From a bacterium (GTDB lineage Bacteria; B130-G9): DNA of 6,809 nucleotides. Within the stretch, counting starts at the first letter, position 1. Every line of letters starts with the position of its first letter. The position numbers were made by a program, and so were the translations under genes. The notes below the pieces were generated by a model. It was not told the DNA's origin. It worked only from the letters and a program-made list of their open reading frames with translations, and made no database searches. Positions 1,569 through 6,772 of the stretch are shown here, in pieces. The DNA is taken from assembly GCA_021160245.1 (NCBI GenBank), contig JAGHCW010000053.1:1-6809 (forward strand), read 5' to 3'.

Positions 1569-3338
1569 TTAAACTGCCGGCAGCCTCATCGTGAACGTGG
1601 AGCCACGCCCGGGTTGGCTCTCCACCTGCATACTTCCACCGTGTAACGCGACGATGTGCTTGACGATTGAGAGGCCGAGGCCCGTTCCACCAAGCTCGCG
1701 CGACCTCGCGCTGTCTGCGCGATAGAAGCGCTCGAAGATGCGGTTGATATGACGCCTTTCGATGCCAATACCATCATCCCGAACAACTAGTATTGCGACG
1801 TTGTACTCCAAGCAGACCTTGATGACGATGTGACCGCCCTTCGCAGTGTATTTGACCGCGTTATCCACAAGGTCTCCAATCGCCTGTTCAAGAAGCGATT
1901 CATTGGCCTTGACGTTCACCGGGCGCTCGGGCGCCTCGAGGCGGAGGTCTAAACCTTTGCTTGAGGCGATGGGCATGAAGTTGGACCTGACACGGTCGGC
2001 GACCGAGACGATATTAATCACCGTTGCCTCGCTCATTTCTTGAACCGCCTCTAATTTCGAGAGCTGCAGTAGATCGTCGATTATTGAGTTCATGCGGTTT
2101 GAGTGCTTTTTGACCTTAGAGAGGAATTCCGGCAATTTCTCGGCATCGTTTAGCGCGCCGTCGAGTAACGTCTCGACGTAGCCTTTGATCAAGGTTATGG
2201 GCGTCTTCAGCTCATGGGAGACATTCGCCACAAAGCTCGTCCTTATCTCCTCCAGTTGCCGCATTCTCGTCACATCGCGTGCGACAATAAGGGTTCCGAC
2301 TCTGCTGCTGTCACCCCCTATGAGGGGAACTGCGTGGAGGCTCATAATTCGATGAGACGGCTCCTGCAGAACAATCTCAATCTCCGACTGCCCTGGGGAG
2401 GTTTGAGCTTCTTTCACGAATTGGGCAAGTGTTGCGTTACGAACCGCCTCAATGAGCATCATCCGCACTACGTCATTCCCTTCAGCCCCCATCATCTCCT
2501 TGAATGCTTGATTTGCTAGCAACACCCTTCCTGTCCTGTCAACTGTGATAATCCCCTCCTTCATACTCGATAGTATCGAGTGCATCTCATTCCGTTGGGC
2601 TGCCAGTGCATCGACGTTGAATTCCAGGCGTGTCGCCATCTCATTGAAGGCGTTTGATAAGACTCCCAGCTCGTCATTGGTCGAGACCTCTACTCTCACA
2701 TCCAAGTCCCCCTTACCAATGCGCCCGGCGGCTCGGCCCAACGACTCAAGAGGTTTTACAATGGAGCGACCGATAAGACCGCCCACAATCAACGCGAGCG
2801 CCGCTGCAACCAGAGCCCCCAGGCCCAGCGCGGCATAGACGGGCCTCAGCTGCTCAGAAGTCTCATCCTCGGGAACCGCGATTCGTACAACGCCAATTGC
2901 CTCCTGGTTACGAAGGAGCGGTATCGCAACGTAGAACATATACTTGCGGAGTGTCTTGCTGAAGCGGGTGTTCTCACCCAGACCACATTCCAGGGCGCCA
3001 ACCACCTCGGGCCGGGAACCGTGATTGTCCATAGTCTCTGCGTCGCCAAGCGAATCGCCCAATATATTACCGTCAAGGTCCATGATAGTAATCCGAGCCT
3101 CGGCAGCCCGGCCAAGTTCCTCGCAGATAGAATCACACTCCACGATGCGCGACTCCACGGGGATACGGAGAAACATCTGGCCAGCAAGCTGCGCTCGGAC
3201 TCTCAAGTCGGAGGAGAGTTCTGCCAGGAAGCGCCCCCTTAGGGAGACCCCTGCATAGACCGCCACCACCAGAACGCAGATAATGATGATGGTTACGTAC
3301 GAGATGTATAGGGTGCTATATAGACGCTTCATCTTCAT
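1569..3338 (-). CDS. phoR: Phosphate-regulon sensor histidine kinase, PhoR type (HAMP-PAS-HisKA-HATPase)
   Basis: Membrane sensor kinase that phosphorylates the adjacent PhoB-like regulator. From ATG 3338 it has 589 aa. Order of parts: TM helix 1 (about 11-31, TIIIICVLVVAVYAG), an extracytoplasmic domain (about 34-165), TM helix 2 (about 168-190), HAMP (about 191-243), PAS (about 252-355, GIITVDRTGRVLLAN), HisKA with VSHELKTP and phospho-acceptor His375, and an ATPase domain with N-box DNAVKYT (Asn493), G1 DDGIGIE (521-527), F-box FERFYRAD and G2 GGTGLGLS (550-557). All catalytic motifs are intact. An in-frame TTG at 3383 would add 15 residues but has no ribosome binding site; a second ATG at 3332 is also possible. 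The start lies inside phoB (23-nt overlap), implying coupled translation. The sizeable periplasmic domain resembles PhoR/ResE kinases of non-enteric bacteria. The phosphate role is inferred from pstSC next door. Confidence 0.92.
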   Translation of the reverse strand: MKMKRLYSTLYISYVTIIIICVLVVAVYAGVSLRGRFLAELSSDLRVRAQLAGQMFLRIPVESRIVECDSICEELGRAAEARITIMDLDGNILGDSLGDAETMDNHGSRPEVVGALECGLGENTRFSKTLRKYMFYVAIPLLRNQEAIGVVRIAVPEDETSEQLRPVYAALGLGALVAAALALIVGGLIGRSIVKPLESLGRAAGRIGKGDLDVRVEVSTNDELGVLSNAFNEMATRLEFNVDALAAQRNEMHSILSSMKEGIITVDRTGRVLLANQAFKEMMGAEGNDVVRMMLIEAVRNATLAQFVKEAQTSPGQSEIEIVLQEPSHRIMSLHAVPLIGGDSSRVGTLIVARDVTRMRQLEEIRTSFVANVSHELKTPITLIKGYVETLLDGALNDAEKLPEFLSKVKKHSNRMNSIIDDLLQLSKLEAVQEMSEATVINIVSVADRVRSNFMPIASSKGLDLRLEAPERPVNVKANESLLEQAIGDLVDNAVKYTAKGGHIVIKVCLEYNVAILVVRDDGIGIERRHINRIFERFYRADSARSRELGGTGLGLSIVKHIVALHGGSMQVESQPGRGSTFTMRLPAV

Positions 3339-4029
3339 TCGCCGGATACCGGAACTTATAACCCACACCCCGAACCGTCTCAATCAGCGGCCCGTATGAC
3401 CCGAGTTTCTTCCGAAGGGCAGCAATGTGAACGTCAACAGCCCTATCTATGATAACCACCTCTTCGCCACGAACGGCATCTATGACCTGGTAGCGGTCAT
3501 AAACCCGGCCACGTCCCCGCATCAAGAACTCGAGTATCTTAAACTCAGTAACTGTCAGCGCCAGTACCTTGCCATCCGCCCTCGCCTCGTAGCAGCGTGT
3601 ATCAACTAAAAGCCCCGCAGCCTTGAGTATCTTGCTCGAATCACTTGCACGCTCCGCTTTCCTTCGGAGAACGGCCCTCACTCTCGCGGTAAGGACTCTT
3701 GGGCTGAAAGGCTTTGTCATGTAATCGTCGGCGCCAAGCTCAAGGCCCAAAACCACATCCGCCTCCTCCGTCCTTGCAGTGAGCATGATTATCGGGATTT
3801 CAGCTGTCGCTTCAGATGCCTTCAGCTCTTTGCAGACATCGACGCCATCAACCATAGGAAGCATCAGGTCTAGAATGACGAGGTCAGGCTCGCAGCTCCT
3901 TGCCGCGGAAAGCGCCGCCTCGCCATTGTACTCCTTCAGGACATTGTAACCCGCGCGAGTCAGGTTGTAGTCAATGAGCTCAACAATGTCCCTCTCATCA
4001 TCCACCACCAAAATTGTCTTCTTGCTCAT
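3316..4029 (-). CDS. phoB: Phosphate-regulon response regulator, PhoB type (OmpR family)
   Basis: Cytoplasmic transcription factor activated by phosphorylation from the kinase encoded just downstream. It has 237 aa, normal for the OmpR/PhoB family. The receiver domain (about 4-118) has acidic residues Asp10 and Asp11, phospho-acceptor Asp54 in LDLMLP, Thr84 in MLTAR and Lys106 in TKPFSP. The C-terminal winged-helix domain (about 135-230) has LTVTEFKILEFL, the recognition-helix region VDVHIAALRKKL and the closing wing RGVGYKF. The ATG at 4029 is preceded only by a closely placed GAGG, a modest ribosome site. The stop (TAG) lies 23 nt inside phoR. The porin gene ends 69 bp upstream with no clear terminator between them, so read-through from the porin promoter is possible. 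Likely targets are the 11-bp repeat array before pstS and perhaps the porin promoter (inference). Confidence 0.93.
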   Translation of the reverse strand: MSKKTILVVDDERDIVELIDYNLTRAGYNVLKEYNGEAALSAARSCEPDLVILDLMLPMVDGVDVCKELKASEATAEIPIIMLTARTEEADVVLGLELGADDYMTKPFSPRVLTARVRAVLRRKAERASDSSKILKAAGLLVDTRCYEARADGKVLALTVTEFKILEFLMRGRGRVYDRYQVIDAVRGEEVVIIDRAVDVHIAALRKKLGSYGPLIETVRGVGYKFRYPANEDEASI

Positions 4030-4098
4030 AGCCTCATCAACCTATCATCGCCATCCTGCCGCTTCAAGTGGCACGTGCCCCGCCTCGCATCAGTTTGA

Positions 4099-5292
4099 TC
4101 ACAGCTTGACCTTCAGGTCAGCCTGTATCGTGAAGTGCCTGTGGCTCTCGGCGCCGTCCAGAACGTCCTTGGGCTCAGTCATAAGACCAGTGAGGTGAAG
4201 GGACGCTTTTTTGAACGGCTGATAGCCAACGCTTAGCTTATGTCCCTTTCGATTGGCGTGCCCAAAATCCGAATCGCAGAAGTCACCAGGCGCCGCGTTT
4301 GCCTCGATGTAAGCGAACTTGTACTTGACCTCCCAATCGTGCTTCTTCTTGCACTTGCCAACCTTCAGATGCGCCGCAAGCGCGGTGTCCTTGCCCTCAA
4401 ACTCCCCGTCTCCCCTGGCGTCATCGCCGGTGTTTATTGCCCAATCCAGTATCACTTTGATCGGCACAGGACCGGCCTTTACACCAAACTGAGCCACGAG
4501 GTCGAAGACATTGAAATCCCCTGCTGCCAGCACGCCATTGCTGTCAACGGGATTGCCATGCGCTTTGCGATAGCTCTTCTCAAACTCGTCAAAATCGTAA
4601 TATGCGGCGGCAAGAGCTGCCGAGAAGCCACCTGTCTTGAGCTTGATTCCGGCCTGTCCAGCAAGCATCCCCGAATCGTGGTCCGCATCCATCTTGTTCT
4701 CATCAAGGAACATCTGAGCCATTGTTACAAACGGGCGCACCGTCCCTTCGCTGAGCTCAAAGCTCTGATACAGGCCGTCCATATTTACGTCAGAATCCCA
4801 GAGGATATCCGTATGGACGAACGGGTTCTTGACCTTCCCACCGGCGAATGTAAGGCCGGGTAGGGCTGGCGGGCTATACTTGACGTATGCAAGATCGATC
4901 CAGACGGGCTTCTTGCTGTTGTTGCTCTCCATGGTCTGATTAGTCGAGGTCGGATCGTCGCTGGAACCCGAGGCAAGCCTGAACCCGACCTCGAGGCCAT
5001 CATCCTTGTACTTCTTCGTGAAGCCCAGCCTCAGGCGAAATCTGCCTCTTTGCCTGTCGTTTTCACATTCCCGACCATCCGAATCGGTGAACTCCCACCA
5101 TTCGCCCTGGTAGCGAAGCCGGAAATCGGCCTTGAACTTCAGACCTTTCAACCACTTGAGACCGCTATCCTTGAGCCATTCGTCCATCAGGCTTGAGTCA
5201 GTTTCACCCGCCCAAGACAGACCAGAAATCAATACCGCATGCACGATCAGCACAGCGATCGCCATTGTTATCAGGTGTTTGCCTTTGTACAT
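4099..5292 (-). CDS. Outer-membrane beta-barrel porin (Porin_5-like 'putative porin'), possible phosphate porin
   Basis: Predicted outer-membrane channel of 397 aa. Residues 1-28 form a Sec signal peptide (hydrophobic core ITMAIAVLIVHAVLISGL, cleavage expected after SWA). The mature protein starts with a short helical stretch (SSLMDEWLKDSGLKWLKGLK), followed by alternating amphipathic strands such as FKADFRLRYQGEW, GRFRLRLGFTKKY and GLEVGFRLASG. The segment GLTFAGGKVKNPFV...LWDSDVNMDGL is what I recognise from the putative-porin family. The last strand, FTIQADLKVKL, ends in Leu rather than the usual Phe. I chose ATG 5292 because GAGG lies 6 nt upstream and a proper signal peptide follows; the TTG at 5331 would add 13 residues. 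It sits directly before phoB, so a role in phosphate or anion uptake is plausible (inference). Substrate specificity cannot be read from the sequence. Confidence 0.85.
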   Translation of the reverse strand: MYKGKHLITMAIAVLIVHAVLISGLSWAGETDSSLMDEWLKDSGLKWLKGLKFKADFRLRYQGEWWEFTDSDGRECENDRQRGRFRLRLGFTKKYKDDGLEVGFRLASGSSDDPTSTNQTMESNNSKKPVWIDLAYVKYSPPALPGLTFAGGKVKNPFVHTDILWDSDVNMDGLYQSFELSEGTVRPFVTMAQMFLDENKMDADHDSGMLAGQAGIKLKTGGFSAALAAAYYDFDEFEKSYRKAHGNPVDSNGVLAAGDFNVFDLVAQFGVKAGPVPIKVILDWAINTGDDARGDGEFEGKDTALAAHLKVGKCKKKHDWEVKYKFAYIEANAAPGDFCDSDFGHANRKGHKLSVGYQPFKKASLHLTGLMTEPKDVLDGAESHRHFTIQADLKVKL

Positions 5293-5351: not shown

Positions 5352-5415
5352 AGATTCCTCTCTTCCGCCGATTCCCTCCTTCCTCTCTCGCGAGATTCGC
5401 TAACACAATCATCCA

Positions 5416-5429
5416 GCGCCTCCGGGCGC
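5416..5429 (+). other. Perfect hairpin with UNCG-class tetraloop
   Basis: GCGCC-TCCG-GGCGC is a perfect 5-bp GC stem closed by C-G around TCCG, an unusually stable UNCG-type loop if transcribed on the plus strand. On the minus strand the loop is CGGA. No U-run follows on either strand, so it is not a standard intrinsic terminator. It would lie in the 5' leader of a porin transcript starting near 5435. Confidence 0.4.
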
Positions 5430-5469
5430 AGACTCATGCAACTTATAGTCCCTATGTGTGAGGTGGGTG

Positions 5470-5670
5470 TTGAGGATGCGCAAAGAAATAATGAATCCGC
5501 CGGATGAGATAGAAAATGCTTGGAATGCTGTCATTGAGGACGGCAGTGTCCGACGGGCTTTCCAGCCTGTCCCTCTATTACGTCATTCGATCTTGAACAC
5601 CGTCCGCCGAAATGCTATATCCTCTTCTACGAACGGACATCGCGTACTCTTTGTCCTAATGGCCCGATAA
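5470..5670 (+). CDS. Doubtful small ORF, hypothetical protein
   Basis: A short open frame starting at TTG 5470 or ATG 5476 and ending at TAA 5670 (66 or 64 aa). GAGGTG at 5460-5465 is spaced 4 nt from the TTG and 10 nt from the ATG, so initiation is conceivable. The protein begins MRKEIMNPPDEIENAWNAV, is hydrophilic and mixed in charge, and has no signal peptide, membrane segment or motif that I recognise. It lies divergent from the porin and upstream of the DUF4365 gene with 130 bp between. It may be a real small protein, a decayed gene fragment or chance; I lean to chance or a remnant. Confidence 0.22.
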   Translation: MRMRKEIMNPPDEIENAWNAVIEDGSVRRAFQPVPLLRHSILNTVRRNAISSSTNGHRVLFVLMAR

Positions 5671-5796
5671 ACGATAATTCGGAGTCGCCTCAATAATGTA
5701 TGCTTCGAGTTTGTGTGATTATGAGCGGCCGTGAACTATCCTGGCGAAACAAGAGAATGTCACAAGGCATGAGCGCAGATTATGGAATGCCGATGC

Positions 5797-5803
5797 GAGG
5801 TGA
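5797..5803 (+). promoter_or_regulatory. Ribosome binding site for the original DUF4365 start at ATG 5807
   Basis: GAGGTGA ends 3 nt before ATG 5807, with the GAGG core 6 nt away: a near-ideal Shine-Dalgarno sequence. The frame it serves reads only MKKAFDHA before TAA at 5831-5833, yet is the same frame as the DUF4365 protein. A strong site serving an eight-codon ORF in register with a gene argues that this was the gene's real start. Confidence 0.65.
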
Positions 5804-5806
5804 GAT

Positions 5807-5833
5807 ATGAAAAAGGCATTTGACCATGCCTAA
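5807..5833 (+). pseudogene. Detached N-terminal codons of the DUF4365 gene, ending at an in-frame TAA
   Basis: ATG 5807 opens eight codons (MKKAFDHA) and then meets TAA at 5831-5833. The same frame continues without another stop to 6769: RPIAHQTSDQGVLLFWNMLP, then the recognised DUF4365 core. A single base change in the TAA would restore a continuous 321-codon gene with a strong ribosome binding site. Either the gene is inactivated by one nonsense mutation, or the base is a sequencing error, or translation restarts downstream. TAA is used as a normal stop by phoR, so code reassignment is unlikely. Confidence 0.55.
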
Positions 5834-5869
5834 AGGCCGATAGCTCATCAGACAAGTGATCAGGGCGTT

Positions 5870-6772
5870 TTGCTTTTCTGGAACATGCTGCCTAAAGCAT
5901 GGGTTTTCAGAGAAGTAGCAAAAGATTACGGTATTGATGTCGAAGTCGAAGTATTCGACGAGAATGGTAATGCTACGGGCCTTGTATTCTTAGCTCAAAT
6001 CAAAGGCACGTCGAAATCGTCCGCGTCAGGAAGGCGCGCTAGGCTCAAGATCGACCGAATCAGACATTACAATTCTCTGGAGCTGCCCGTGTTAGTGGTG
6101 CGCAGTTCCGAAAACGAGGGGGAAGTATATGTCAGGTGGTCGCGCTCTATTGATCTTTTCTATGCGAAGGACGGGGCAAAGACATATGGTGTCACCTTCG
6201 GAGAGGAGCATAGGTGGGACGGAAGCAAGCCTCAAGCGATAATCAGAGAGCTGAGAGATATGCGACGTATCAGGAATCCGGGATTCAGTCTGCCATTGTC
6301 GTTCTCCATCAGCGCTAGTTGCAGATCAATCTGCGGCATCGCCACTACCAGGATATCGTCTGAGATCAGGAGGATAGCTGGGTATTCCCCTGGGCTTTTC
6401 ATCTTGAAGAGCGAGGAGGATCACCCGCTGGGGCATGTCTCCATCGGAGGGAGGGAGGTCGCTTCGACCCTGGGGCAGATATTAGGATGTGTCGTGCATT
6501 CAATAGACAAGCTGTCTCCGGATGAAATCCGACAGGAATTACCACAATACATATTGCTGGGCTTCGGCATTGCACTATATAGATATGGCCATCATGGAGC
6601 CGCGTCAGCAATAATTCGAGCCCTCGACCCGACGCCTATGATGAGGCGATATCCTGTGCTTGCGCAAAATATCTGGGGCTCGCTGTTGCTTGGTGATCAT
6701 TTGGAGTATGCTCTTGAACTTTGGGACAACCTTGGAAAAGGGCCGAATGCCTTGACGACAGAAGTAGTCTGA
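5870..6772 (+). CDS. DUF4365 domain protein (PD-(D/E)XK nuclease-like), 5' end disrupted
   Basis: From TTG 5870 this is 300 aa. The N-terminal 115 residues match DUF4365: WVFREVAKDYGIDVEVEVFD (11-30), then TGLVFLAQIKGT (36-47). Asp19, Asp23 and Gln43-x-Lys45 fit the D...(D/E/Q)xK pattern of PD-(D/E)XK nuclease-like folds, so nucleic-acid cleavage or binding is possible but unproven for the family. LPVLVVRSSENEGEVYVRW (75-93) fits the later core strands. Residues from about 190 look helical, with TPR-like segments (YILLGFGIALYRYGHHGAA; LLLGDHLEYALELWDNLG) that could bind a partner. TTG 5870 has only AGGG 4 nt upstream, and family-like sequence extends before it to a TAA at 5831, so the true N-terminus is probably ATG 5807. 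The gene may be a pseudogene. DUF4365 proteins are often found near defence genes, but none is visible here. The orientation is opposite to the Pho locus, so it is an independent unit. Confidence 0.75.
   Translation: MLFWNMLPKAWVFREVAKDYGIDVEVEVFDENGNATGLVFLAQIKGTSKSSASGRRARLKIDRIRHYNSLELPVLVVRSSENEGEVYVRWSRSIDLFYAKDGAKTYGVTFGEEHRWDGSKPQAIIRELRDMRRIRNPGFSLPLSFSISASCRSICGIATTRISSEIRRIAGYSPGLFILKSEEDHPLGHVSIGGREVASTLGQILGCVVHSIDKLSPDEIRQELPQYILLGFGIALYRYGHHGAASAIIRALDPTPMMRRYPVLAQNIWGSLLLGDHLEYALELWDNLGKGPNALTTEVV

Follow-up and report, generated by a model that had tools for sequence, protein, structure and literature searches.

Organization of the Contig and the DUF4365 Gene

The window analysed here is an entire contig of 6,809 bases, belonging to a draft genome bin of an uncultured bacterium, of 3.43 Mb in 244 contigs. 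Its minus strand encodes a PhoR/PhoB-like two-component pair and a Porin_5-type porin, alongside a pstS-like gene. The longest phoR-like ORF, read from TTG 3383, shares 68 bases (3316–3383) with the phoB-like gene, and the true start of the phoR-like gene is probably located further downstream. A gene for a DUF4365 protein occupies the right end of the contig on the plus strand. Around its start (5400–6300), the G+C content drops from about 0.54 to 0.47–0.49, which is consistent with acquired DNA.

The start region of the DUF4365 gene contains a strong Shine-Dalgarno-like site (GAGGTGA, 5797–5803), followed by an eight-codon open frame (MKKAFDHA, 5807–5833 including the stop), which begins at ATG 5807 and is closed at codon 9 by a TAA triplet (5831–5833) in frame with the DUF4365 body. 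The body then runs open for 312 codons (5834–6769) to a TGA stop (6770–6772), exactly as an earlier note on this DNA had described. The pairing energy with the anti-Shine-Dalgarno sequence before ATG 5807 is −10.2 kcal/mol, a value that about 1% of randomly chosen ATGs in a sample of the genome attain, and the strong ribosome-binding site reported in that note is thereby borne out. Two further start codons are present: ATG 5826, which has a far weaker site (−2.6 kcal/mol), and TTG 5870 (5870–5872), the start expected from a gene finder, which also has a weak one (−4.0 kcal/mol). No start codon is connected by an unbroken frame to the whole of helix 1 of the encoded domain, as TAA 5831–5833 intervenes and ATG 5826 is out of frame; the start of the gene is disrupted in the sequence as given. 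The arrangement of Shine-Dalgarno site, ATG and early stop before a long open frame is not extraordinary on its own, because it occurs three times in 245 kb of the genome, the DUF4365 case included. The informative feature is instead the homology of the stretch from TAA to TTG 5870.

Structure and N-Terminus of the DUF4365 Protein

The body encodes a nuclease-like domain, a middle region and the start of a helical region. It matches PF14280 in Pfam (E 1.8e-12; 47.9 bits, with a curated cut-off of 24.3) and, at 7e-59, a profile made from independent relatives only, with the window sequence left out (model positions 6–303 of 637, with no frame break), so the frame after TAA was correctly read as a clear DUF4365 protein. 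The residues Asp44, Gln64 and Lys66 (numbering of P0001, the read-through protein) are invariant, and the PD-(D/E)XK-type catalytic columns are kept; these residues are equated with D41, Q60 and K62 of DREN through the motif and a weak profile match. The 312-codon body is intact and free of decay.

The segment between TAA and TTG 5870 (5834–5869) holds an invariant Arg and His and the first half of helix 1, all of which would be lost with a TTG 5870 start. With the body alone as query, six alignments (H1, H2, H6, H7, H8, and H10) start at the first residue past TAA, and the relatives that align there are plasmid-borne, from Aliarcobacter, Agrobacterium, Vibrio, Curtobacterium, and Rhizobium, with identities of only about 25–31%. 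Arg10 and His14 (P0001 numbering) are invariant among the plasmid-borne relatives, whose annotated starts are located 5–8 residues upstream of the shared Arg. The residues after the stop thus correspond to the family N-terminus, as the note had supposed: similarity extends over 5834–5869, and the aligned homologues reach upstream of the position of TTG 5870. Because the relatives align from the first residue after TAA, TTG 5870 is not the true start, as far as relatives can say.

In an AlphaFold2 model built from a three-sequence alignment (mean pLDDT 57; about 60–85 over most of the nuclease part), helix 1 is predicted at residues 9–18 counted from 5834, and TTG 5870 corresponds to residue 13. 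On this model, a start at TTG 5870 would halve helix 1 of the PD-(D/E)XK-like fold, in line with the suggestion that it would cut into the fold. In the NbaSPARDA complex, helix 1 of DREN, which is the DUF4365 domain, contributes to the tetramer interface, and substitutions at tetramer-interface residues abolished activity (PMC12205087).

The 3′ End of the Gene

The TGA stop is located 37 bases before the contig end and closes the frame at about residue 320. Full-length relatives have 596–647 amino acids, and most run about 300 residues further, through TPR-like repeats. The other contigs of the genome, searched for the absent 3′ part, offered no clear candidate; the TPR-type matches seen there in long ORFs were unrelated. 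The early end hints at a second defect but does not prove one, because one relative (L008) is also short (251 amino acids as annotated).

Nature of the 5′ Lesion

The DUF4365 gene belongs to a known family and is a broken or mis-assembled copy of an ordinary kind. The preferred reading, to which we assign a probability of roughly 0.5, is that it carries one small lesion at its 5′ end, with a frame change somewhat likelier than a nonsense mutation and favored over a more complex history. The ancestor was likely a stand-alone DUF4365-TPR nuclease on mobile DNA, with an intact gene. A small lesion at about 5826–5836 would leave the complete domain without a good start codon in its frame, and the present product would be either absent or deprived of part of helix 1. 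The intact protein is predicted to be a DNA- or RNA-degrading effector, probably of phage defence. The lesion may have occurred in the organism or may have arisen only in the assembly.

A one-base frame change near 5826–5836 is at least as likely as a nonsense mutation to explain the break, because the conserved Pro-Lys is located in the frame of ATG 5826; TAA would then be merely an out-of-frame triplet. The out-of-frame stretch TTG ACC ATG CCT AAA (5820–5834; MTMPK) is similar to the very first residues of relatives (MDMPI, MRLPK, MNLPR, MKLPK, and TPK), and its Met-Pro-Lys is encoded by the nine bases up to and including 5834. Pro-x directly precedes the shared Arg in seven of eight relatives (MPI, LPK, LPR, LPT, TPK, LPK, and TPK); the exception, L018, which is truncated at the edge of a contig, has Ser-Gln at this position and argues against the frame change. 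When the three frames are scored against the relatives at positions −3 to −1, that of ATG 5826 obtains +10.4, that of ATG 5807 −7.3 and the third −6.4, in a test that was devised after the residues had been seen and that compares two alternative frames. Of all 9-mers on the two strands of the contig, 0.04% reach +10.4. Against the frame change, the ribosome-binding site of ATG 5807 is much stronger than that of ATG 5826, which favors ATG 5807 as the original start, and only about 0.13% of the stops in this genome are preceded within 11 codons by an in-frame ATG whose site reaches −9 or better. The Met-Pro-Lys match and the ribosome-binding site of ATG 5807 are each unlikely to arise by chance.

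An error of base calling or assembly, with the gene of the organism itself intact at the 5′ end, is a serious possibility, although we hold it to be somewhat improbable; it is orthogonal to the type of lesion. The draft state of the genome, the small size of the contig with the gene at its very end, and the lack of decay in the body all speak for an error. The A-run at the break, however, has only three bases and is no typical error hot-spot, and the short 3′ end would require a separate explanation.

The earlier note favored a single nonsense mutation. Its broken start stands, but the nonsense substitution itself is doubtful, given the position of the conserved Pro-Lys in the frame of ATG 5826. 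Neither the Pro-Lys-type residues in the other frame nor the short 3′ end was remarked on in the note. For a gene starting at ATG 5807, a substitution in the ninth codon agrees with the strong ribosome-binding site and the correct frame of that start, and the resulting start distance of 9 residues is near the 5–8 of the relatives. The residues before the stop (Asp-His-Ala), by contrast, are unlike those of the relatives, which the ATG 5826 frame does resemble, and we consider this substitution unlikely.

It is more improbable still that the gene is functional from a downstream start, at TTG 5870 or at a rare start codon such as ATA 5840, with the upstream similarity as a remnant. The catalytic motif is kept in the remaining frame, and a start at ATA 5840 would retain helix 1, which is predicted to begin only at residue 9. 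Both codons have weak ribosome-binding sites, however, and either start would lose the conserved upstream Arg; TTG 5870 would also lose the His and cut helix 1, a part of the tetramer interface that NbaSPARDA DREN needs for activity (PMC12205087).

Deliberate control by recoding, programmed frameshifting, phase variation or an eight-codon leader coupled to ATG 5826 is very unlikely. Recoding of TAA, proposed in the note, is rejected, because TAA serves as a normal stop across 245 kb of this genome: it terminates 15 of the 94 ORFs with 300 or more amino acids, frames after TAA stay open no longer than those after TAG or TGA, and the phoR-like gene in the window also ends in TAA. The phase-variable start that was also proposed has no visible basis, as no repeat permitting phase variation was seen, and inspection revealed no slippery heptamer and no homopolymer longer than three A at the break. 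A leader would reconcile both start signals, since the eight-codon frame has the strong site and overlaps ATG 5826. Against it, the frame of ATG 5826 ends at TAG 5841–5843, so that coupling alone falls short of the body, and the 30 bases inspected in two relatives (L006 and L010) contain no leader, with purine-rich sites directly before their starts. That such a leader, through its strong site and overlap, controls a costly nuclease by coupling or frame change is scarcely credible.

The case illustrates that a gene-finder start such as TTG 5870 can conceal a broken 5′ end, and it contributes one more decayed or mis-assembled copy to a family whose members are likely defence nucleases. Beyond these two points, the finding changes little.

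Distribution and Comparison With Known Systems

The DUF4365 gene is accessory, because three genomes of the same family have no match to PF14280, and it was probably acquired horizontally. Among 386 relatives one other, weak match was obtained, and among 398 genomes of another phylum two. The sole match of a scan of genome contigs (L003) was judged spurious, a chance match in an unrelated gene. Phage records and a DNA-level search of plasmids gave no match, and viral contigs yielded two useful distant relatives. On a Rhizobium plasmid (L011, CP021375.1; about 3970–4500), an unannotated DUF4365 copy has at least two frame changes and a transposase gene downstream; it is another decayed member of the family, and this frame-broken copy is counted in support of the broken-gene reading.

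The nuclease part resembles that of SPARDA, a short-Argonaute system in which DREN is fused to APAZ and partnered by a Piwi protein. The top structural matches of the model, which has low overall confidence (pLDDT 57), are SPARDA DREN chains (9qcc, 9jt2, and 9jsz; E 3e-5 to 1e-3). DREN-APAZ is thus recovered clearly by the fold search and weakly by a profile search, and a PDB sequence search with the nuclease part as direct query returned nothing. The PADLOC model for pAgo-associated REase matches residues 22–99 (1.8e-6), within the nuclease part only. The motif DYGID…VE…QIK agrees with the catalytic residues D41, Q60, and K62 of NbaSPARDA DREN (PMC12205087). The gene is not filed as a SPARDA system, because the 94.8% complete genome contains no Pfam match to Piwi (PF02171), a model that a divergent short Argonaute could escape, and no APAZ domain is seen in the window protein, for which PF14280 is the sole Pfam match. 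In place of APAZ, the relatives of the window protein have a C-terminal TPR-like region.

The TPR-containing branch of the family is uncharacterized as far as found in the literature, where no studies of four plasmid-borne DUF4365-TPR proteins (L006, L007, L009, and L010) were found. The genes for these four are located near possible defence or mobility genes, which encode a SMEK domain, a site-specific DNA methyltransferase, a PDDEXK nuclease, HEPN, and recombinases. The closest comparison is with the plasmid DUF4365-TPR proteins of Aliarcobacter (WP_148572017.1), Vibrio (WP_175247384.1), and Agrobacterium (WP_038496277.1), which have in common with the window body the N-terminal Arg…His block, the motif DYG(I/V)D…VE…Q(L/I)K.T, the middle region, and the start of the helical region. 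Whereas these proteins have an intact start and 596–647 amino acids, the start of the window gene is interrupted and its frame closes at about residue 320.
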